Shown here: piece after piece, positions 6,999-50,321 of the stretch
Layout of the letters: every line of letters begins with the position of its first letter
Position numbering within the stretch: position 1 is the stretch's first letter
Source of the DNA: an uncultured Bacteroidales bacterium
GTDB taxonomy: Bacteria; Bacteroidota; Bacteroidia; Bacteroidales; Paludibacteraceae
Assembly: GCA_903830915.1 (NCBI GenBank)
Contig: CAIKVR010000356.1
Span: 1-64,000, forward strand
Length of the DNA: 64,000 bases
Direction of reading: 5' to 3'
The notes under the pieces: generated by a model
Told to the model about the DNA's origin: nothing
Seen by the model: the letters and a program-made list of their open reading frames with translations, nothing else
The model's database searches: none
Translations under genes and position numbers: made by a program

Positions 6999-8444
6999 AT
7001 GAAAACACTTCAACCCAAAGCTGTCTGGCAGTTTTTCCACGAAATAACTCAAATTCCACGACCTTCGAAAAAGGAACAACGGATAATAGCATATCTAACT
7101 GATTTTGCTCAAGAACATGGTTTGGAAAGTAAAACCGATGAAGTGGGAAATGTGCTGATTTGCAAACCAGCCACCAATGGCTACGAGAATAAAGTAACAA
7201 TCATATTGCAGGCACATATCGACATGGTGTGTGAAAAAAACAGCGATACGGTATTTAATTTCGATACAGATGCTATTCAAACCTACATTGATGGAGATTG
7301 GGTGAAAGCTCACGGTACTACACTTGGAGGTGACAATGGTATAGGAATGGCAATGATGCTTGCCGTACTGGCATCAAGAGATTTACAACATCCGGCATTG
7401 GAGTGTTTATTTACAGTGGACGAAGAAACCGGTTTGACAGGAGCTTTTGCACTGGACAATAAACTATTGACTGGCAAAGTGTTGATAAATCTGGATTCGG
7501 AAGATGATGGAATTATCTTTATTGGCTGTGCAGGTGGAATTGATACCACTGCTACAATGAATTATCTACCGGAGAAATCACCGGAAAATTATTTTGCTTT
7601 CACTGTTTCAGTGAAAGGTCTCACAGGCGGTCATTCGGGCGATGATATTGAGAAAGGTAGAGGTAATGCCAATAAAATATTGAACCGCTTCCTGTGGACA
7701 CTGAACAAACAAACCGATTTGCGTTTATCAAGCTTCAATGGTGGCAATCTGCGCAATGCAATTCCCCGGGAGGCAACTGCCACAGCCTTAATTCCATGGG
7801 CTGAAAAAGAAAATGTGCGTGTACTTTTCAATCATTTTATAAACGATCTTGAAACGGAAATCGGTGACGTAGAACCCAATCTGAACCTGAATCTGGAATC
7901 CGAAAACATTCCCGAAACGGTTATCGACAAGAAATCGTCCGATGCATTACTGAACGCACTTTATGCTTGCTCTCACGGTGTGATAGCCATGAGCCGCGAT
8001 ATGAAAGGGCTGGTGGAAACATCTACCAACCTAGCTTCGGTAAAAATGCAGGAAGGCAATAACATATTGATTACCACCAGCCAGCGCAGTTCGGTAGAAT
8101 CATCGAAATACGATATCATGCAGCAGGTAGAGTCAGTGTTTAATCTCTGCGGAGCAACGGTTACACACGGTGATGGTTATCCGGGTTGGAAACCAAACTT
8201 GAAATCAAACATTCTGCAAACGGCACAGACAAGTTACAAAAAGCAGTTCGGTGAAGAAGCTCAAATACGGGCTATCCATGCCGGACTGGAATGTGGTCTT
8301 TTTCTCGAAAAATATCCTCAACTGGATATGATTTCTATTGGTCCGCAGATGTACGGCGTACACTCACCCGATGAACGCCTGAGCATCAGTTCGACCGAGA
8401 AATGCTGGAAGTGGCTTGTACAGATATTAGCTGCGCGTTATTAG
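6999..8444 (+). CDS. pepD: Aminoacyl-histidine dipeptidase (cytosol non-specific dipeptidase, M20 family)
   Basis: Full-length 481 aa with ILQAHIDMVCEKN, DGDWVKAHGTTLGGDNGIGMAMMLA, VDEETGLTGA, GGHSGDDI and the ending IGPQMYGVHSPDERLSI. Confidence 0.93.
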   Translation: MKTLQPKAVWQFFHEITQIPRPSKKEQRIIAYLTDFAQEHGLESKTDEVGNVLICKPATNGYENKVTIILQAHIDMVCEKNSDTVFNFDTDAIQTYIDGDWVKAHGTTLGGDNGIGMAMMLAVLASRDLQHPALECLFTVDEETGLTGAFALDNKLLTGKVLINLDSEDDGIIFIGCAGGIDTTATMNYLPEKSPENYFAFTVSVKGLTGGHSGDDIEKGRGNANKILNRFLWTLNKQTDLRLSSFNGGNLRNAIPREATATALIPWAEKENVRVLFNHFINDLETEIGDVEPNLNLNLESENIPETVIDKKSSDALLNALYACSHGVIAMSRDMKGLVETSTNLASVKMQEGNNILITTSQRSSVESSKYDIMQQVESVFNLCGATVTHGDGYPGWKPNLKSNILQTAQTSYKKQFGEEAQIRAIHAGLECGLFLEKYPQLDMISIGPQMYGVHSPDERLSISSTEKCWKWLVQILAARY

Positions 8445-8660
8445 CTTCGCGAAATTTGCTTCGCTGTTATTTGCTTCGCGATATTAGCCCTTGGCGATAT
8501 TTGCCCTTCGGGCATTATTAGCTACGCTGCAATATCATGAACGAAGTGAGTAAATAACGTGAACGAAGTGAAAAAATATCAGCGAAGCTAATAACACGAA
8601 CGAAGTGAACAAATATCAGGAACGAAGTGAACAAATATCAGGAACGAAGTGAAAAATAAT
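8422..8660. repeat. Modular array of short TTC/GAA-centred words separated by A/T linkers, arranged as a large imperfect inverted repeat
   Basis: Words GCTGCGC, GCTTCGC, GCCCTTCGGGC, GCTACGC (left half) and (G)AACGAAGTGA, GCGAAGC (right half) alternate with linkers such as gatatta, gttattt and aaatatc. GTTATTAGCTTCGC (8437-8450) is the exact reverse complement of GCGAAGCTAATAAC (8582-8595). Confidence 0.85.
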
Positions 8661-9875
8661 AAACGAAAAATAATAAACGACCCGGTTTTCGGATTTATCA
8701 ACATCCCGAATGACTTTTTGTACGATATCATTCAGCATCCGTACTTTCAACGACTGAATCGTATCAAACAACTTGGTTTGTCATCGTTTGTTTATCCCGG
8801 TGCGCAGCATACCCGCTTGCAACATTCGTTAGGCGCAATGCATCTTATGGGTGAAGCCATTGCTCAACTGCGCGATGCGGGACATGAAATCACTTCTGCA
8901 GAGGCCGAAGCGGTTCGGGCCTGCATATTGCTGCATGATATTGGTCATGGTCCATTTTCGCATACCTTGGAACATAGTTTGGTAAGTGGAGTAAGTCATG
9001 AGGAGATTTCACTGCTCATGATGCAGCAAATAAATCAGGAACTAAACGGGAAGTTGGAAATGGCGCTGGATATTTTCACTAACCATTATCCTAAAAAGTT
9101 TTTACACCAACTTGTTGCCAGTCAGTTGGATATGGATAGGTTAGATTATCTCAGCCGTGACAGTTTTTATTCTGGTGTTAGTGAGGGAATTATTGGTGCG
9201 GCACGTATTATCAAGATGTTGAACATTTACAACGATCAATTGGTGGTAGAAGCTAAGGGAATTTATTCCATTGAAAAGTTTCTGGTGGCACGAAGGTTAA
9301 TGTACTGGCAGGTTTATCTGCATAAAACATCTGTGGCAGCTGAAAAGATGCTGATGAATATACTGAAACGTGCCAAGGAGCTTGCCAGTCGGGGTATCGA
9401 ACTTTTTGGAACTCCGGCTTTACGTTATTTTCTTTATAACGAGATAAATGATACTAATTTCGGTAAATCAGATGAAGCTTTGTTAAACTTCGCTTTATTG
9501 GACGACTCGGATATTGTTTCGTCCATAAAAGTTTGGTCATCACATTCTGATATAGTGCTTTCCACTCTTTCCAAAGCATTCACTAACAGGCGTTTGTTTA
9601 AGGTACAGGTAAGTTCGCAAGCTATTGATAAATCTTTGAAGGAAAGTCAGTTGAAACAATATGTAGCTCATTTTGGCGTTGACTTTGCAGAAGCAAGCTA
9701 TTTTATGGGTGAAGAAATTGTAACTACCGACACCTACAGCCCGGAAGATGATAGCATCAATATTTTATATAAGGATGGAACAGTTAAAGATATTGCAGAT
9801 GCTTCCGACATGTTGAATATCAATGTACTGACTAAGAAAGTCGAGAAGTATTATTATTGCTATTTAAGGCTTTAA
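8649..9875 (+). CDS. HD-domain phosphohydrolase (dNTPase-like family)
   Basis: DPVFGFINIPNDFLYDIIQHPYFQRLNRIKQLGLSSFVYPGAQHTRLQHSLGAMHLM...LLHDIGHGPFSHTLEH...SQLDMDRLDYLSRDSFYSGV. The start is GTG, inside the preceding repeat array. Confidence 0.9.
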   Translation: MKNNKRKIINDPVFGFINIPNDFLYDIIQHPYFQRLNRIKQLGLSSFVYPGAQHTRLQHSLGAMHLMGEAIAQLRDAGHEITSAEAEAVRACILLHDIGHGPFSHTLEHSLVSGVSHEEISLLMMQQINQELNGKLEMALDIFTNHYPKKFLHQLVASQLDMDRLDYLSRDSFYSGVSEGIIGAARIIKMLNIYNDQLVVEAKGIYSIEKFLVARRLMYWQVYLHKTSVAAEKMLMNILKRAKELASRGIELFGTPALRYFLYNEINDTNFGKSDEALLNFALLDDSDIVSSIKVWSSHSDIVLSTLSKAFTNRRLFKVQVSSQAIDKSLKESQLKQYVAHFGVDFAEASYFMGEEIVTTDTYSPEDDSINILYKDGTVKDIADASDMLNINVLTKKVEKYYYCYLRL

Positions 9876-40354: not shown

Positions 40355-40468
40355 AATAAAAAATGGTCTTCCTCATAATTAATCGTAAGACTGTTCTTTT
40401 AGTTTTGCATTAATAAAAAATGGTCTTCCTCATAATTAATCGTAAGACTGTTCTTTTAGTTTTGCATT
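40355..40468. repeat. Exact 57-bp tandem duplication spanning the 3' end of a GH28 gene
   Basis: AATAAAAAATGGTCTTCCTCATAATTAATCGTAAGACTGTTCTTTTAGTTTTGCATT occurs at 40355-40411 and again at 40412-40468. Confidence 0.97.
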
Positions 40469-41722
40469 ATTACTCTTATATTCCAATGGAGAACCATTTA
40501 CAATAACTTTCTCGAGTTTTATATCATTGTAATTCGATTTTATTGTAGGTTCAGTAGCGGTAGCTGTTACGTTGTTTATCTGAATTTTCGAAACCTGATC
40601 CATTGGATTTCCTGCAAGTTCTGCAACGACACTACACTTTATGTTTAGATTTGAAACTGAGATATTTCTGACTATCCCAAATGGTTTTGTATTACTTCCT
40701 TCAAGTGTGAAAAACTGTTTCCATGGTTTCATCTCAATTATACTTCGACATCTTCCTGTAACATTCTCTACAGTAATATCTTCATAAACCTGATAGGTGT
40801 CCGGACGCATTTTTAATCTTAACAACGGTACATCACAGTCAACTTTACAATTTCGCAAAACAATATTTTTGGCATGAATACATTCGCTTCCAAGCGTTAA
40901 GACACCGTGCGAATCGCCAAACGTACAGTTCTCCACCAGAATATCCTCAACAATTCCATTTTCTGAACGTTTGTGGGCATCAAAGCCTTTACCGCCTTTA
41001 ATACAAACTGCATCATCATTCACCGAAATATAACAACCTCTCACAGTCACCCGTTTACAAACATCAATATCAATGCCATCTGTGCTGGGTGCTTTGACCG
41101 GTTTGAAAGGTGAGCGAATATCGCAATTCTCAATCAACACATCGTTACATTCATACAAATGAGTTGTCCAAAAACCTGAATTGCAAAGCTTTACATTCGA
41201 AACTGTTACTCTGTTACAGCCCCAGATAAATAGCAAGCGTGGACGATGAACTTCGAGATTGGTACATTCACGACCCAGCTTTTTCACAGAATCACGGGTA
41301 GCCCAAAAGGTCTTCCAATACTTCAATCCGTTCCCATTAATTGTTCCCGGTCCGGCAATTTCAAAGCCGTCGACATGATAGGCATTGACCAAAGCCGCGT
41401 AATAATAGATGCTTCTCCCTTCCATGCGCGAAGGAATCAGCGGATAATCGGCAATATTATCCGAACCTTTCAGCACGGCACCTTCCATCAGGCGAAGTTT
41501 GGTATTCGGCTTAAAAAACAATGCTCCCGACAAATAAACTCCTTTGGGAATCACCACCGTGCCACCGCCTTCATCCGAAGCTTTATCTATAACCGATTGA
41601 ATGGCTGAGGTATTCAGTTTGGTACTGTCAACTGTTGCTCCATGATTTGTAATTACATAATCTGCTGATTTGGATGAAACTACCGCAGCCAACATACACA
41701 ATGAGAAAATGACTTTTTTCAT
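40436..41722 (-). CDS. GH28 polygalacturonase-like (copy 2)
   Basis: TSAIQSVIDKASDEGGGTVVIPKGVYLSGALFFKPNTKLRLMEGAVLKGSDNIADYPLIPSRMEGR; STDGIDIDVCKRVTVRGCYISVNDDAVCIKGGKG. Confidence 0.9.
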   Translation of the reverse strand: MKKVIFSLCMLAAVVSSKSADYVITNHGATVDSTKLNTSAIQSVIDKASDEGGGTVVIPKGVYLSGALFFKPNTKLRLMEGAVLKGSDNIADYPLIPSRMEGRSIYYYAALVNAYHVDGFEIAGPGTINGNGLKYWKTFWATRDSVKKLGRECTNLEVHRPRLLFIWGCNRVTVSNVKLCNSGFWTTHLYECNDVLIENCDIRSPFKPVKAPSTDGIDIDVCKRVTVRGCYISVNDDAVCIKGGKGFDAHKRSENGIVEDILVENCTFGDSHGVLTLGSECIHAKNIVLRNCKVDCDVPLLRLKMRPDTYQVYEDITVENVTGRCRSIIEMKPWKQFFTLEGSNTKPFGIVRNISVSNLNIKCSVVAELAGNPMDQVSKIQINNVTATATEPTIKSNYNDIKLEKVIVNGSPLEYKSNNAKLKEQSYD

Positions 41723-41771
41723 ATATTTCCAGTTGTTTATTATTTATTTGAAAAAGTTGATTCGTTTCCAC

Positions 41772-42205
41772 CAACCTTCCGTATTGCTCCACAGATGTTT
41801 TTTATGGTTCTAAGAACTTTTTGTATTGTTCCCCGGAACTTTCGTATGTTACAACAGAAGTTCCGTATTACTCTACAGAAGTTTATGTAGCTCTCCGGAA
41901 GTTCTGTATAGTTCTACTAAGCTTTCCGGCTTTAATACCGAACATCGGGATTACTCTAAAAAACTTTCCGATTACTCTACAGAACTTTTTTTATGTTCCA
42001 CAAATGTTTTGTATAACTCTACGAAACTTTCCGGCTTTAATCCGAAACATTCCGGTCTTAATACGAAACTTTCCAGCTTTAATACGAAACTTTCCAGCTT
42101 TAATATGAAACTCTCCGGTTTTAATCTGAGACTTTCCGATCTTAATCTGAAACTTTCCTACTTTAATCCGGAAGTTTCAGATTGATACCCGAAACACTCG
42201 TATTG
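41772..42205. repeat. Degenerate 21-bp-period tandem repeat (minisatellite), about 20 units
   Basis: Successive units such as cgaaactttccggctttaatc / cgaaacattccggtcttaata / cgaaactttccagctttaata (x2) / tgaaactctccggttttaatc / tgagactttccgatcttaatc / tgaaactttcctactttaatc; the left half is more diverged (aagttccgtattactctacag type). Confidence 0.9.
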
Positions 42206-42208
42206 ACC

Positions 42209-43522
42209 TCAATTTCCGTCCGGCTTCAGCACATCCACTGATGGACTATCGTACCAGTGAAATACCAAAAGTGAATCGGGCTGTTTGGGGTCAAAAGTTT
42301 TCCAGTCATCCCTGACGAATTGTTTCAATGGGTAATTATTGCTTACAATGCTTTGAACCACGCATTTTGCCAGTTCGTACGCTCCATACGGATTAAAATG
42401 CGTGTTATCAGCCAGCGGTTTATCCTGTCCCGGATAGGAGTTGGCCGGATAATGCACAAATGCCTTTTTGGAGTTCTCAACACCAAGCGCTTCATACAAA
42501 TCTTTACTCATGTCATTCAGGTCAACAAGCATAACATTGTCCTCTTTAGCCATTTGACGCATAGATGCCGGAAAATCTTCCAATGTATTGATAATTTTGC
42601 CATTCGCGTCGAAACTGCGACGACTAGTTGAAGTTACCAACACCGGAATGCCGCCTTTCTTTTTAGCTTCGGCAATATAATATCTCAATTCATCTTTATA
42701 GGTTGTAAATGCATCCAAATGTGTGTTGCCGGGCTTTTGGTCGTTGTGCGCAAATTCCATAAACAGGTAATCGCCTTTTTTCATATGACTCAGGATTTTC
42801 ATCAACCTTCTTTCGCCTTTAAATGCCCGTAAAGTTTCACCGGATTCTGCATAATTGGCCACCACCACATTTGCTTTCAGGAAATTGGGAAGCATTTGTC
42901 CCCACGATGCCCAGGGCTCATACTCCTGATCGGTAACGGTAGAATTTCCGGCCAGAAAAATGGTGGGTAATTCGTCGGCATTATGTATCTCAATAGCCGA
43001 CACACAGGGCTTTTCACCACCAAATTCCAGTGTCAGTTTATTGTCCCAGTTGATATATTTTAGTTCGCGCGGTTTCAGTTTTATCTTCGTCGAATCATTG
43101 ATTTTGGGCATCCGAACATCTACAATAATGGTTTTTACAACTATTTTACCGGCTTCCGTTTTCAGATTTTCGAACATCAGGCGGCGCGATTCGGCTTTCA
43201 ATGTTGTTGACGAACCTTCGGCATTTCCTCCCAGCATCAATACAACGCGGTAATGCCCTTCGGGTAACTGAACCGAGAAATAAAAAGGTTTGACAGAGGC
43301 AATAAAAGGAGTTTTTGCTCCTTTAGTATTGGTTGTAAGCGGACCAAAACTGGTGATTCCATAACCTTTGGCATTAGTATATTCTGCCGTTGTGTCAATC
43401 TGAATACAGTTTTTGGCAGTTTTGGCAGTTCCAAACGAAAAGTTCTTTCTCCATTCGTTTTTCTGAGCACTGACATTAAAAAGCAATGCCGAGGCAATTA
43501 AAATACATACTATTTTTCTCAT
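42209..43522 (-). CDS. Rhamnogalacturonan acetylesterase (CE12, SGNH) copy 2, with N-terminal beta-sandwich domain
   Basis: RKNFSFGTAKTAKNCIQIDTTAEYTNAKGYG; TIFLAGNSTVTDQEYEPWASWGQMLPNFL; NYAESGETLRAFKGERRLMKILSHMKKGDYLFMEFAHNDQKPG; DNTHFNPYGAYELA. Confidence 0.92.
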   Translation of the reverse strand: MRKIVCILIASALLFNVSAQKNEWRKNFSFGTAKTAKNCIQIDTTAEYTNAKGYGITSFGPLTTNTKGAKTPFIASVKPFYFSVQLPEGHYRVVLMLGGNAEGSSTTLKAESRRLMFENLKTEAGKIVVKTIIVDVRMPKINDSTKIKLKPRELKYINWDNKLTLEFGGEKPCVSAIEIHNADELPTIFLAGNSTVTDQEYEPWASWGQMLPNFLKANVVVANYAESGETLRAFKGERRLMKILSHMKKGDYLFMEFAHNDQKPGNTHLDAFTTYKDELRYYIAEAKKKGGIPVLVTSTSRRSFDANGKIINTLEDFPASMRQMAKEDNVMLVDLNDMSKDLYEALGVENSKKAFVHYPANSYPGQDKPLADNTHFNPYGAYELAKCVVQSIVSNNYPLKQFVRDDWKTFDPKQPDSLLVFHWYDSPSVDVLKPDGN

Positions 43523-43532
43523 ATTTCTTATA

Positions 43533-45983
43533 TCAATTATTATAATTCATTGCATCAACAGACTTTAGCTGAATTTCGCCACTTTTCAAACCTGCACCCT
43601 GCACTGACAATTTAATTGCTCCAGCCTTTGTGGTTGATTGCACTAAAACAACTAGTTTGCCATTAAATAATTTCATGGTTGGTAAATGAAACAGTTCCAA
43701 TGAAGTGGCATCGCCATTACAAGCTGCACGGAAAGTTCCATTTCCGCTGACATTAAACTTCAACTGGTCATTAACCACCGGACAAGGATTTCCATTTTTA
43801 TCAACAACCGATGCTGTGACATAACAAATATCATTGCCATCGGCACTTATTTCGGTGCGGTCAGGCTCAAGGACTATTTTATAAGGTTTTCCGGCCGTTA
43901 CAATTTGCTTTTCGGCAGCCGGTTTTCCCTCTTTATCATACGCAACCACTTTCAATGTTCCGGGTTCGTATTTCACGTCCATCCACATCAGTCGGTATCT
44001 GTTTAGAGCACTTGCATCACTTTTCTTCTGAATTCCCATACTTTTGCCGTTTACAAACAATTCTGCACTATCGAAATTGGTATAGACAAAAACGGGTGTT
44101 ACCTGACCTTCGCGCCCTTCCCAATTCCAGTGAGGGAGAATGTGCAGGGTGTTTTGGGTTGTATTCCACTGGCTGCGGTAAAAATAATAACGGTCTTTAG
44201 GTAAACCTGCCAAATCGCAAATTCCAAAATACGAACTTCGTGAAGGCCAAAGATTATCGTAAGGTGTTGGTTCGCCCAAATAATCAAATCCGGTCCATAC
44301 AAATTGACCGATTACCCACGGTTTTGTATCCTGCAAAACAAAATCTTCATCGGGCAGATTGGACCATTTGCAGTATTCCAAATCGTAGGACGAACATTGA
44401 CGATCGTCGTATTGCTTTTCGGCACCCTTAACAGCCGGAAATTTATATACGCCACGCGAACTTACAGTAGAGGCCGTTTCGGACCCTAAAATAAATCCCT
44501 GCGGAAATAATTTATTAGCTTCTTCGTACAAATTCAAGCGATAATTTAAGCCCGGAATATCCAGCAGTGCTCCGAATCCTGATGCCATTGTTGCTTTTAC
44601 CTGATCCATTCCAACTGTTACAGGTCTTGTAGGATCTTCACGATGAAAGATTTCCTGTAACATTTTAGCTCGTTTTACACCTTCTGCAGTTCGTTGATCC
44701 GGCACTTCGTTTCCTGCACTCCACATAATAATACAGGGATGATTTCGGGTAGCATGTACCAGATTCACAATATCTTTTTCAACATCGGATTTAAAAAACC
44801 GACTATACCCGTTTTTTACCTTGGGAGCTGCCCATTCATCAAAACTTTCAGCCAGAAACATAAATCCCATTTCGTCACAAAGCTCCAGTTGTTCAATCGA
44901 AGGCATATTGTGCGAGCTTCTGATGGCATCGCAACCCATATCTTTCAGTATGCGAAGCTGCCGGCGCATCGCTGCCACATTTACCGCCGCTCCCAATGGA
45001 CCGAGGTCGTGGTGTAAACAAACTCCCTTAAACTTACGGACTTTCCCGTTTAAACTAAAGCCTGTGACAGGTTTATAACTTATTTCACGTATTCCAAAAC
45101 GGGTTTTAATTTCGTCTTTAAGCACATTGCCGGCAAAAAGTTTGCTGACTGCGATATAAAGATATGGTGTTTCGGGACTCCACAGCTGCGGATTAGTTAC
45201 CGAAATATTCTGATCAAATTCGTTCCCGAAAACATCCTGCGTACTGCCTGAAGCCACCGTATCACCTTTCGCATTCAAAATGTAAGTGCTGAGGTGAAGC
45301 TTGCTTCCCGAAACTTTGGTTTTAATATTTACTTTGGCAAAGCCGGAAGTGATAACCGGGGTTGTGATAGATGTTCCCCACTGCTCAATGCTCTCCTGAT
45401 TTGTCACAATGAGCCGAACCTTGCGATATAACCCCGCACCGGGATACCAACGGGAAGATAATCCTTTGTTTGAGACCTGAACGGCCAGCGTATTTCTTGC
45501 TCCTTCCACCACCTGAGCGCTTATATTAAAATAGAAATAGTTATAACCATAATGCCATTCACCGGCTTTTTGCCCATTGATAAAGACTTTCGGCTCGCTC
45601 ATAGCCCCTTCGAAAAGAATCAGCACTTTCTGTCCGACCTTATATTGTGGCAAAGTAAACTGATTCCGGTACCAGCCTTCACCAATATAGGGCAACGCCC
45701 CTGTTCTGCCTGTTTTTTCAGTTGGAATTTTCTCTCCGTTTTGATCTATTGCAATAGTTTGTTTATCAATTTCCTTATCAAAAGGCCCATAAATAGCCCA
45801 ATCATGAGGCACAGATACGGTTTCCCATTTCCGGTCGTCAAACTCTTTTTGAAACGCCAAATCGACAGAACCTTTATGAAATTTCCAGTTAGCCGAAAGT
45901 TCGGTTTCCACTCTAAGCTGAGCAAATGAACTCAAAGTTGCTGACAGAAAAAACAACAGAAGGAAATTATTTTTTATTGACAT
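43533..45983 (-). CDS. GH2 beta-galactosidase-like (copy 1)
   Basis: LSANWKFHKGSVDLAFQKEFDDRKWETVSVPHDWAIYGPF; GFSLNGKVRKFKGVCLHHDLGPLGAAVNVAAMRRQLRILKDMGCDAIRSSHNMPS; NHPCIIMWSAGNEVPDQR. Confidence 0.93.
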   Translation of the reverse strand: MSIKNNFLLLFFLSATLSSFAQLRVETELSANWKFHKGSVDLAFQKEFDDRKWETVSVPHDWAIYGPFDKEIDKQTIAIDQNGEKIPTEKTGRTGALPYIGEGWYRNQFTLPQYKVGQKVLILFEGAMSEPKVFINGQKAGEWHYGYNYFYFNISAQVVEGARNTLAVQVSNKGLSSRWYPGAGLYRKVRLIVTNQESIEQWGTSITTPVITSGFAKVNIKTKVSGSKLHLSTYILNAKGDTVASGSTQDVFGNEFDQNISVTNPQLWSPETPYLYIAVSKLFAGNVLKDEIKTRFGIREISYKPVTGFSLNGKVRKFKGVCLHHDLGPLGAAVNVAAMRRQLRILKDMGCDAIRSSHNMPSIEQLELCDEMGFMFLAESFDEWAAPKVKNGYSRFFKSDVEKDIVNLVHATRNHPCIIMWSAGNEVPDQRTAEGVKRAKMLQEIFHREDPTRPVTVGMDQVKATMASGFGALLDIPGLNYRLNLYEEANKLFPQGFILGSETASTVSSRGVYKFPAVKGAEKQYDDRQCSSYDLEYCKWSNLPDEDFVLQDTKPWVIGQFVWTGFDYLGEPTPYDNLWPSRSSYFGICDLAGLPKDRYYFYRSQWNTTQNTLHILPHWNWEGREGQVTPVFVYTNFDSAELFVNGKSMGIQKKSDASALNRYRLMWMDVKYEPGTLKVVAYDKEGKPAAEKQIVTAGKPYKIVLEPDRTEISADGNDICYVTASVVDKNGNPCPVVNDQLKFNVSGNGTFRAACNGDATSLELFHLPTMKLFNGKLVVLVQSTTKAGAIKLSVQGAGLKSGEIQLKSVDAMNYNN

Positions 45984-46040
45984 GTTTATATGTTGTAATA
46001 TTGTGTTGAATCCCTAATATAAGTTAGTATCAGCTTATTT

Positions 46041-48374
46041 CTATTTAATTTCAATACTTACACTTCCCGCTTTCAAATTTGCCGAATTTGCGGTAATCGT
46101 AATCTGTCCTTTTGCTGCAAGGGCACGCACAATAGCTGAACAACGACCGTTATAAGCCTGACGTTCAGAGCCCTGATAATTTTCGTGACTGATGATATTT
46201 CCGTTATCGAGTGCAATAATTTCACCGGTAGTTGAAATGGAGAATTTAATAAGTTTTTCCACATTCGGGCAAACAATTCCATTGGCATCCACCACCTGAG
46301 CAGTTACAAATGAAACTTCATCCGGGTTTTTCGAAAGTGCATTGCGGTCAACTGTCAGAAGAATTTTCTCCGGTTCGCCGGCTGTAATCAGCTCATCGGT
46401 TGCCACAACCTGACCTTTATTTTTGGCCACAGCCTTCAGAGAGCCTTTTTCAAAAGTGATATCCCACGAACGGGGCGCATCTCTTGTCGATTTCTGCTGT
46501 GCTCCGAGCGATTTTCCATTCAGAAACAATTCCACTTCGTCGCAATTACTATAAACCTGAATGCTGGCAGCATCATACGTTCCAAAATCGAGCGGTGTCC
46601 AGTTTGCTACCCAGTTTCCAACTCCGGCATTGTCTTCCTTGCGCATGATGTGAACCACCGGTTTATCCGACCACCAGCTTTGACGCTGATAACTCAACTG
46701 TTTCCAGTTGCCTACACGGTCGAACAAACCCTGATTGTACGAAATTTCCGGCCATTTGGCTTCTCCCAGATAGTCAAATCCGGTCCACAGAAACTGTCCG
46801 GCCATATACGGATTATCGCGCAGAATCAACCATTCCGAGAGTTCGTGCCCGTTTTCAGTTCCGATAACTTTCAACTGTGGTTTAGTCTGATGCAGCTCAA
46901 CCAATTCCTTTTCACGATAATTCTGACCGACAATATCCATAATTTCTGCAAAACCATTGGTATACACTTTTGACGAACCCGGACGGAACAACGCCATTGT
47001 TACAGGACGCTCCGAATCAAACTGATGAACCAAATCCTGCTGGTTCTTGTATTTTTTGAAACCGCTGGAATCATTCAAATTATCACGGATTTCGTTTCCC
47101 ACGCTGTAAAGTATGATGGAAGGATGATTTCGGTCGCGCAGAACCATATCCCGTGTATCTTGTTCCCACCATTTTGTAAAATTCAGATTATAACCATAAT
47201 CGCTACCTGGTTTTGAGGCATTCCAAGTATCGAAACTTTCGTCCATAACCAAAAATCCCATGCGGTCGCACAAGTCCAGAAATTCCGGTGCAACAGGATT
47301 ATGAGCAGTACGAATGGCATTCACCCCGACTTCTTTCAAGAGTTTAAAACGGTGTTCCCAAACTCCAAGCGGAACAGCAGAACCTAACCCACCGCCATCG
47401 TGATGCAGACAAACACCTTTTATTTTAATGTTTTTACCGTTCAGCCAGTAACCGGTGGCAGCTTCAAATTTGCTGTCGCGAATTCCGAAAGTGGTGGTTT
47501 GTTCGTCAATTATTAATTTACCTGATTTAATCAGTGTCGTTGCGCGGTACAAATTTGGATTATTGGTATCCCACAACTGCGGTGAAAGTATTTCCAGCAA
47601 CTGATTTACCATGCCTGTTTTTCTGGCCTGAATAGATTGATTGGTTTCTGCAGTTTTGACAACTTTTCCCGATGGGTCTGTTATTGTCGTTGAAATAGTA
47701 ATTGTACCCGAAACAGCTGATTCGTTTAACACCTGAATCTGCATATTCACACTTGCTTTTTTATCGCTCACTTGTGTAGAACGAGCATAAACGCCCCACG
47801 GAGATATGTGTATCGGGTTTGTAGCCACCAATCGAACATGACGGTAAATTCCTGCACCGGTATAATAGCGCGAAGCCGGTTGCAATAAATTATCAGCCCG
47901 TACTGCCAGGACGTTTTTCCCGCCTTTTCCAAATTTCAGATGACCGGTTAATTCATAACTAAAACTAATATAACCGTTTGGACGCTTACCCAAATGAAAA
48001 CCATTAATCCACACATCGCTGTTGGCCATAACCCCATCAAATTCGATAAAGAGTTTCCGTTTATCATCGGTTTCGTTCAGCGTAAAACTTTTCCTATACC
48101 AACCAATTCCGGCAGGCAAATAACCTCCGCCACGTCCGGTAAGATTTGTTTGGTCGTAAGGTCCTTCAATGCTCCAGTCGTGCGGAACGTCCAGTTTCCG
48201 CCATTTTGAGTCATCATAAGCCGGCTCTTCTGCCCCTTTGGCATCCTCTTTCAGAAAATGCCAGTTACTGTCAAAATTGCTGATACTTCTGGAATTATCC
48301 TGTGCCTGCAATGCCACAGAATGGAAAATCAACACACAAAGAGTGAGATTGATAAATTTAGTTAGCTTAAACAT
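46041..48374 (-). CDS. GH2 beta-galactosidase-like (copy 2)
   Basis: FDSNWHFLKEDAKGAEEPAYDDSKWRKLDVPHDWSIEGPYD; GVCLHHDGGGLGSAVPLGVWEHRFKLLKEVGVNAIRTAHNPVAPEFLDLCDRMGFLVMDESFDTW; RNHPSIILYSVGNEI. Confidence 0.93.
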   Translation of the reverse strand: MFKLTKFINLTLCVLIFHSVALQAQDNSRSISNFDSNWHFLKEDAKGAEEPAYDDSKWRKLDVPHDWSIEGPYDQTNLTGRGGGYLPAGIGWYRKSFTLNETDDKRKLFIEFDGVMANSDVWINGFHLGKRPNGYISFSYELTGHLKFGKGGKNVLAVRADNLLQPASRYYTGAGIYRHVRLVATNPIHISPWGVYARSTQVSDKKASVNMQIQVLNESAVSGTITISTTITDPSGKVVKTAETNQSIQARKTGMVNQLLEILSPQLWDTNNPNLYRATTLIKSGKLIIDEQTTTFGIRDSKFEAATGYWLNGKNIKIKGVCLHHDGGGLGSAVPLGVWEHRFKLLKEVGVNAIRTAHNPVAPEFLDLCDRMGFLVMDESFDTWNASKPGSDYGYNLNFTKWWEQDTRDMVLRDRNHPSIILYSVGNEIRDNLNDSSGFKKYKNQQDLVHQFDSERPVTMALFRPGSSKVYTNGFAEIMDIVGQNYREKELVELHQTKPQLKVIGTENGHELSEWLILRDNPYMAGQFLWTGFDYLGEAKWPEISYNQGLFDRVGNWKQLSYQRQSWWSDKPVVHIMRKEDNAGVGNWVANWTPLDFGTYDAASIQVYSNCDEVELFLNGKSLGAQQKSTRDAPRSWDITFEKGSLKAVAKNKGQVVATDELITAGEPEKILLTVDRNALSKNPDEVSFVTAQVVDANGIVCPNVEKLIKFSISTTGEIIALDNGNIISHENYQGSERQAYNGRCSAIVRALAAKGQITITANSANLKAGSVSIEIK

Positions 48375-48380
48375 GGTATT

Positions 48381-50279
48381 TTATTTTTTTTGTTCAGTAA
48401 GAGGTTTCACTAAAACGATATTCGGTTTGGGTGCTTTTTTCATATCCGTTCCCAGAAAAAAGCCGGTATGCGGCGGCTGATTATAGCCCACATTTTCCGT
48501 TGCAACTCCCAACCGATACTGAGGATCGTGCATCAGCGTGTAAATACGGTGGTTGGTGGGAATTGTAGTGCTGTAAATTCTGAGATTTTGATTGTCGGCT
48601 GTGCGGAAAATAACTTCTTCGCGCCAGTCGCCAAACAAATCGGCAGTTAAAGCCGGTGTCGCCTTAGTTCCGTTGTTCGACATACAACCTTCTGCGGTGA
48701 AAATCCGACCGACATTATACTTATCAATCCTGTTTTTATCCAGCAATTCCCGACTAAAATCACCGTCCCACCAAATCAGGAAATTGGTTGAAGTAGGTGC
48801 GTTTCCAATTCGCTCACCTTTCAGATTCAACAGTCCGTTCGAACCCGAAAACCACATTTCTGCACCCGGATTTCCGGGATAAATATCTTCGGCCACGCCA
48901 CGTCCCACATCCTTATCCATCGAGCCTTTGTAAAGAACTTCACCCGTTTTGGCATCGTAAACGGCTGCTCCCTCTCCCGTTGTACCTTCTTCTATCTCAT
49001 GTATGCCAAAAACTTGAAGTCCCGGTCGTTTTGGATCAAGTTTACCAACATGAATAGCATCGCCATGACGGAATCCTGTCGAAAACAGACCCTTACCATT
49101 ATCATCAACCACCATTGAGCCGTAAATTATTTCATCTTTACCGTCGCCATCTACATCAGCCACGCATAAATTATGGTTTCCCTGTCCTGAGAAGGGGTTT
49201 TCACTGTCTTTACTGTCGAAAACCCAGCGTGATGTTAGTTTTCCATCCCGCCAGTCACAAGCCGCCAACACCGTACGACCATAATAACCACGACACATCA
49301 CCACACTGGGATGAACACCATCAAGATAAGCCACACAAGCCAGAAAACGATCCACCCGATTACCTGTATGATCACTTTTTCCATTTCCACCATGACCATT
49401 CCAACCATTAAGCGGATAGCGATTCGGAATGTAATTCGTGGTGGCTAATGCTTCACCGGTTCGACCGCTAAAGATAGTGAAGAATTCCGGTCCCTCCAGA
49501 ATTTTACCATACAAAGAACGGCTGTTTTTATCCGGGTTTCGCCAGTCTTTAGTGGAATCGCCAATAACTTTTCCAACGCCATCAATGGTTCCATCGGCTG
49601 TTTTGCAGGCAAACTCTGCTATTCCATCACCGTCAAGGTCGTAAACCATAAACTGCGTATAATGAGCACCTTCCCGAATGTTTTTACCCAGATTTATTTG
49701 CCAAAGGAAGGTTCCATCCATTTTGTAAGCCTGAAAAATAGGAATTCCCGAAATGCCGGGTGAAGGAGTATCGATACTGCGACCGGTTTGATGAACGATG
49801 ATTTCATATTCGCCATCGCCATCCAAATCGCCCACCGAAGCATCATTGGGTTTGTAACCTTCGGGTGTTTTAAGCGGAATGTTGATATATTGCTGAACCG
49901 GAGAGTTCGCTTTCAGAACAAAAAGTTTGCTTGCTTCCTGCTCTTCACCATTCAATACAGCTTTTACAAAATACGAATTATCGACAGTGAAATCCGGTTT
50001 CCCATCCTGAAAATTCGTGCTTTCACTAATCGGAGATTTATTTAATCTGACGGGGTTTTCATTGCCGCTTTTCCGGTAAAGATTAAAAGTAATGTTATCC
50101 GATTCTGTTCCCAGCAGCCTCCAGCCGATATAAACCGTGTCCGCTGCAGTCCTCATTGCAATGACACCCCGACCGAGGTTTTCCATTTGCCGCTGCGACA
50201 TTGCAATATTAACTGAAATAAATAAAGTCAATGCTATTACGGCAATTCTTCTAATATATGATGTTTGGATAATTTTCAT
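48381..50279 (-). CDS. Rhamnogalacturonan lyase, PL11 (short form, no sorting tail)
   Basis: RQMENLGRGVIAMRTAADTVYIGWRLLGTESDNITFNLYRKSGNENPVRLNKSPI; NDASVGDLDGDGEYEIIVH; VYDLDGDGIAEFACKTADGTIDG; DLFGDWREEVIFRTADNQNLRIYSTTIPTNHRIYTLMHDPQYRLGVATENVGYNQPPHTGFFLG. Confidence 0.95.
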   Translation of the reverse strand: MKIIQTSYIRRIAVIALTLFISVNIAMSQRQMENLGRGVIAMRTAADTVYIGWRLLGTESDNITFNLYRKSGNENPVRLNKSPISESTNFQDGKPDFTVDNSYFVKAVLNGEEQEASKLFVLKANSPVQQYINIPLKTPEGYKPNDASVGDLDGDGEYEIIVHQTGRSIDTPSPGISGIPIFQAYKMDGTFLWQINLGKNIREGAHYTQFMVYDLDGDGIAEFACKTADGTIDGVGKVIGDSTKDWRNPDKNSRSLYGKILEGPEFFTIFSGRTGEALATTNYIPNRYPLNGWNGHGGNGKSDHTGNRVDRFLACVAYLDGVHPSVVMCRGYYGRTVLAACDWRDGKLTSRWVFDSKDSENPFSGQGNHNLCVADVDGDGKDEIIYGSMVVDDNGKGLFSTGFRHGDAIHVGKLDPKRPGLQVFGIHEIEEGTTGEGAAVYDAKTGEVLYKGSMDKDVGRGVAEDIYPGNPGAEMWFSGSNGLLNLKGERIGNAPTSTNFLIWWDGDFSRELLDKNRIDKYNVGRIFTAEGCMSNNGTKATPALTADLFGDWREEVIFRTADNQNLRIYSTTIPTNHRIYTLMHDPQYRLGVATENVGYNQPPHTGFFLGTDMKKAPKPNIVLVKPLTEQKK

Positions 50280-50313
50280 AGAATACTAAATTTTTTATCG
50301 GAAGTATTTCCTT

Positions 50314-50321
50314 CAAAGGTA
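50314..50321 (-). promoter_or_regulatory. Candidate -7 element upstream of PL11 on the minus strand
   Basis: Minus strand TACCTTTG (exact TAnnTTTG), 34 bp before the PL11 start codon, just downstream of a minus-strand terminator. The -33 element is not convincing. Confidence 0.4.

Follow-up and report, generated by a model that had tools for sequence, protein, structure and literature searches.

The locus lies in a plant-polysaccharide enzyme cluster (GH28, GDSL/CE12-type, GH106 and GH2) within the window, the whole 64,000-nucleotide stretch of DNA that was analysed. A tandem array with a 21-bp period occupies most of the 486-bp gap between a CE12-type esterase gene and a GH28 gene. The features are:

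41773..42207, minus strand (the strand of CE12 and GH28): whole 21-bp tandem array, ~20.7 degenerate units, from lag-21 autocorrelation, register printout and TRF.
42022..42178, minus strand: regular right-hand subarray (TRF: 7.5 copies, 82% matches, 0% indels), with the unit CTTTAATNCGAAACTTTCCGG on the plus strand, that is, CCGGAAAGTTTCGNATTAAAG in the GH28 direction.
41773..42021, minus strand: left-hand subarray, more degenerate, of TTCCGTATTACTCTACAGAAG-type units with a few right-type units interspersed.
40436..41722, minus strand: GH28 polygalacturonase-like gene, downstream of the array (Pfam PF00295, E 1.3e-24).
42209..43522, minus strand: CE12-type GDSL esterase gene, whose stop codon adjoins the array (Pfam PF13472, E 3.2e-10; orthologues found).
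41826..42185, plus strand: KLSxFNx heptad ORF of 119 aa, from the ORF list, judged non-coding.
41821..42108, plus strand: LIRNFPA heptad ORF of 95 aa, from the ORF list, judged non-coding.

The initial annotation described about 20 degenerate units of period 21 in two subfamilies, right and left, and both descriptions were borne out, the first by lag identity and TRF. Lag-21 identity was 0.585 over 41740-42208, with 0.69 in the right half and 0.47 in the left, whereas dinucleotide shuffles gave 0.275 ± 0.022. The three highest lags in the autocorrelation were 21, 42 and 63. The units are contiguous 21-mers, and by eye their register runs from ~41773 to ~42207, slipping by 1 bp at a few points in the left half. 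An AAAGTTT core, frequent in the arrays linked to the IPxSD genes described below, occurs five times in the GH28 direction and not at all on the other strand. No second copy of the array was found in its own assembly, the next best matches outside it being 15-30 bp long, and neither the window locus nor eight related loci matched Rfam at the gathering score. Other repeats in the window include two perfect 57-bp direct repeats at 40355-40469, which cover the GH28 3' end (ORF end 40436) and the intergenic spacer that follows, and a mixed short-repeat cluster at 8423-8680 made of GATATTAGCTTCGC (14-16 bp) and AATAACATGAACGAAGTGAAAA (22 bp). Repeats of the ATTAGCTTCGCGAA type, resembling this cluster, also occur in genome G002.

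Searched against the genus, the window array matched other arrays of period 21 whose loci are unrelated (G044:C79, G044:C360 and G002:C1:271137-271310). The best matches included arrays upstream of IPxSD genes (G044:C79, E 4.8e-7, 76% over 81 bp; G002:C1:271215, E 4.2e-4), and profile similarity between the window array and IPxSD-linked arrays was seen on both strands, against a null that permutes columns and is hence lenient. A strict two-unit pattern gave six matches across all GTDB genomes, and the one examined further, in G044, is a true array. In Paludibacter, the periods of intergenic arrays are concentrated at 21 bp and its multiples and also at 41-43 bp. Non-coding arrays in the first 0.8 Mb of G002 have mainly periods of 21, 42, 63, 84 and 126, and less often 41/82 or 22/66; these periods recur in G033, G017 and G007 and in G049, which belongs to another family. 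Units at different G002 loci are mostly unrelated in sequence, and roughly half the arrays sampled in G002 are orphans. Repeats of other periods were also observed. G002 carries 7/14-bp repeats such as GTTCACTGATCACT (L051-L090, e.g., 193538-193633 and 239689-239754) and, at G002:C1:223917-225658 (L062), a 1.7-kb non-coding array of CRISPR-like look in which the period is 65/66 bp and the stretch GTTGTAGTTCCCTTCAATTTTGGGATAATCCACAAG is constant. Five intergenic stretches with an 11-bp period (~one helical turn) lie on G032:C24 (L166-L171), where the sampled 120 kb held no 21-bp arrays.

The arrays form a class tied to two protein families. The first, named IPxSD here, is a protein of 222-224 aa with no Pfam match, encoded behind three of the 21-bp arrays. 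The IPxSD set comprised 27 loci (26 in the genus and one in G049), with readable upstream sequence in 26; a 21-bp array lies at most 700 bp upstream in 25 of these 26 genes and ~960 bp upstream in the remaining one. The second family, DUF6261 (PF19775), has an array at most 700 bp upstream in 39/46 genes of the genus sample and the window's own genome, with a typical period of 41-43 bp. Upstream arrays were found for 1-5% of ordinary genes in five genomes (22/453, 3/123, 2/194, 1/46 and 2/73), these controls being genes of at least 200 aa with some members of the array-linked families still among them. Comparison of IPxSD and DUF6261 with ordinary genes gave Fisher p values of 1e-17 to 1e-35, which are overstated, as related loci are not independent. 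Across the order, an array was present at 27 of 28 DUF6261 loci (14 genomes from 14 families), with periods of 41-43 bp at 25 loci, 85 only at one and ambiguous at one, and the link holds in 13 of the 14 genomes; outside the order, arrays were found at 4/7 loci. DUF6261 reaches 22 copies per genome, and the window's own genome has 11, several with arrays of the 41-43-bp type. Where the proteins are related, so are the array units. Two further small-protein families stand behind arrays in G002, G033 and G007. A helical protein of 302-306 aa with a C-terminal carboxypeptidase-regulatory-like domain is a further array-linked family, preceded by arrays at G002 688401-688788 (period 85/21) and G007:C4 5501-5981 (period 63).

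The predicted structure of IPxSD consists of an N-terminal helical part and an FnIII domain (pLDDT 87.5), and that of DUF6261 is all-helical (pLDDT 89.1); no DNA-binding or catalytic fold was recognisable in either. Among solved structures, the relatives of IPxSD were FnIII domains only, and DUF6261 had no significant relative. Neighbour proteins had no convincing match to a defence or phage family in PADLOC or NCBIfam and no Cas- or Tas-like match in the Pfam and PADLOC scans, and PHROGs gave weak tail-fibre matches to the FnIII part of IPxSD.

That the window array belongs to this Bacteroidales class of helix-phased arrays is well supported. It shares the period of the class (n x 21 bp, or 41-43) and has sequence kinship to the IPxSD-linked arrays. 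Directly behind it, where the best-defined members have IPxSD, DUF6261 or a similar gene, lies GH28, and no TANNTTTG motif was found upstream on the gene strand as far as 50314. No close IPxSD homologue was found in the window's own 87%-complete assembly, and a divergent FnIII protein of the same genome (G000:C119) had no array in the stretch read. The window array is an orphan copy, without a partner gene, in a pectin-utilisation gene cluster.

A 21-bp array is missing at ten further CE12 loci of the genus whose 3' flank could be read; the gaps behind CE12 are 3-162 bp at nine of these loci and 286 bp at the tenth (G009). The same CE12-GH28 order is present in G022, G017 and G024, with spacers of 59, 84 and 70 bp and no array. 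In G033, the closest relative by CE12 (80%), a 21-bp array likewise lies at the CE12 3' end, but its sequence differs and the next gene is GH2 rather than GH28. It is unlikely that the G033 array occupies this site by coincidence, because arrays lie upstream of only ~2% of ordinary genes in the G033 sample. Unrelated spacers in close relatives had been named in advance as evidence against a role for the array: most relatives do have short, unrelated spacers, but the nearest one has an array of the same period.

Within 200 bp above the arrays, the consensus of the Bacteroidetes promoter element, TANNTTTG, occurred 37 times on the gene strand, compared with 7.3 times in shuffled sequence and 15 times on the opposite strand. 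Between array and ATG it occurred 12 times vs. 6.7, and with so little enrichment a promoter directly before the start codon of the array-linked genes was rejected. Enrichment above the arrays, and hardly any between array and ATG, suggests that the arrays are transcribed, and class arrays are probably 5' leaders. A promoter-like motif was detected at only part of the array loci; the L212 array of the window's own genome is preceded by a TTG / TAACTTTG pair. The earlier suggestion of a length-variable 5' spacer gained some ground from the related arrays, which lie between promoter-like motif and start codon. No TANNTTTG was found on the minus strand from 40925 to 50314, so there is none just above the window array, and transcription would come from further up the operon.

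Arrays of both families fold better than controls in which the same column permutation was applied to all units (mean z -1.67 for IPxSD and -2.74 for DUF6261), with an equal advantage on both strands. Strand-specific RNA structure was rejected on these grounds, since self-complementarity is present but has no strand bias, and RNA and DNA action are therefore indistinguishable by this measure. There is also a moderate excess of dyad symmetry, with p ≤ 0.05 in 5/22 and 15/54 arrays; together with self-complementarity on both strands, it makes RNA folding and protein binding to DNA both possible. Folded as RNA, the window array was more stable than dinucleotide shuffles (z -4.6), partly from repetition alone; measured against column permutation, the whole array had z -2.4 and its right half z -0.5, which is not above the control.

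We lean toward the explanation that the window array, non-coding and orphan, belongs to a class whose arrays are transcribed leaders tuning the gene behind them at the nucleic-acid level, although belief and doubt are about evenly balanced. Class arrays would lie between promoter and start codon and be transcribed as 5' leaders, and each would present repeated, identical units for folding or protein binding that adjust how strongly the following gene is expressed. The best-defined members are those at most a few hundred bases upstream of genes for small uncharacterised proteins, with period 21 at IPxSD and 41-43 at DUF6261. For GH28, the window copy may serve as a spacer between cistrons or as a regulatory element; it may also be a relic. 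The counts above establish the class and its tie to the two protein families; the mechanism, including transcription, binding and any effect on GH28, is inferred. Several observations speak against it: the window array has no partner gene, orphans make up about half of the G002 sample, ten other CE12 loci lack an array, the promoter motif is present at part of the loci and missing just above the window array, and self-complementarity has no strand bias and is no stronger than z -0.5 in the right half of the window array.

A broader possibility, plausible but short of an even chance, is that the IPxSD-FnIII and DUF6261 genes with their arrays are one undescribed, order-wide Bacteroidales system. 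Each gene would have its own array, with a period of two or four helical turns set by the protein family, array and protein would cooperate, and orphans would be sites or relics in unrelated operons.

A neutral origin was also weighed. A chance 21-bp duplication in a long spacer might have been expanded by slippage or unequal exchange without acquiring a function, the n x 21 periods reflecting a mutational preference for whole double turns. Units mostly unrelated between loci, higher-order repeats that resemble amplification (84 = 4 x 21, 126 = 6 x 21) and the missing array in most relatives are consistent with this. Pure mutation does not, however, predict upstream arrays in 25/26 and 39/46 genes, with a family-dependent period, in many bacterial families. 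We consider a neutral minisatellite somewhat unlikely, although it is a fair account of the orphan copies.

It is also conceivable that each unit is a protein site, perhaps for the neighbour protein or a dimer, and that the sites on one helix face support a cooperative filament or operator, by analogy with iterons and plasmid centromeres. Periods of 21 and 41-43 bp correspond to two and four helical turns, and the enriched dyad symmetry and the pairing of related proteins with related units point the same way. The predicted IPxSD and DUF6261 folds nevertheless have no recognisable DNA-binding domain, and the promoter-like motifs lie upstream of the arrays and not between array and gene, which leaves this proposal unlikely.

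Arrival by transposition, as a MITE-borne minisatellite like BrickBuilt, would fit an intergenic Bacteroidales minisatellite with empty sites in relatives, but BrickBuilt has 19 similar copies per genome (PMC4596501) vs. no second copy in the window's own assembly, and this origin is very improbable.

Finally, the initial annotation raised a remnant small repeat gene encoding heptad peptides. The two plus frames that it reported are open (123 and 111 codons), and the third has a TAA in right-hand units. However, when the 21 columns of the window array were permuted, the longest frame was at least 123 aa in 20% of permutations and the second-longest was at least as long as observed in 4%. The KLSxFNx frame has 7 synonymous vs. 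41 non-synonymous differences, and those at codon positions 1, 2 and 3 number 42, 34 and 18, the opposite of a coding pattern. The peptide reading fails because open frames this long are near expectation for any 21-bp array and the third position varies least; moreover, the array that G033 carries behind CE12 is not open, and many sister arrays have a period of 41 and are unable to stay in frame. The window array is non-coding, and a plus-strand heptad-repeat peptide gene, remnant or active, has next to nothing in its favour.

What appeared as an odd minisatellite of one metagenome bin is a member of a class. Two uncharacterised families, one of them a Pfam domain of unknown function, have a phased array before nearly every copy, with a family-dependent period. 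The link is a first functional handle on DUF6261, which appears in a single paper of the searched literature, and specific tests become possible in a cultured type strain with a complete genome. No report linking the arrays to IPxSD or DUF6261 was found, which is weak evidence of novelty as most subscription papers lay outside the search; within the same limits, no paper joined a tandem repeat with a Bacteroidales leader. The repeat-array class looks new, as does its tie to two uncharacterised protein families.

The class can be compared with several known systems. It resembles theta-plasmid iterons and tandem centromere repeats (e.g., sopC), which are helix-phased repeats of ~20-22 or 43 bp near a gene. 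It differs from them in that the neighbouring genes encode neither Rep nor Par proteins, a chromosome has many copies with a unit of its own in each, and promoter-like motifs stand before the array. BrickBuilt, a minisatellite/MITE of Porphyromonas gingivalis, has a 23-bp repeat in 1-23 units with reported promoter elements, and is one sequence family whose loci mostly have a shared leader and tail and small inverted ends (PMC4596501). It is alike in being an intergenic tandem repeat of Bacteroidales with a unit of ~two helical turns, whereas in the present class the units differ from locus to locus and what stays constant is the family of the gene downstream. A BrickBuilt-type MITE was rejected for the window array, which has no second copy in its assembly. 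TIGR-Tas is, like CRISPR, a repeat array adjoining a dedicated protein family (PMC12045711), and the present arrays differ in having no variable spacers between constant repeats. A CRISPR or TIGR array was rejected for the window locus, with its contiguous 21-mers and CAZyme neighbours. The TAACTGA repeats of Beggiatoaceae are likewise direct repeats found in many intergenic regions, for which a regulatory role has been proposed, but their 7-bp unit resembles the separate 7/14-bp repeats of G002 and not the 21-bp class (PMC4679880).
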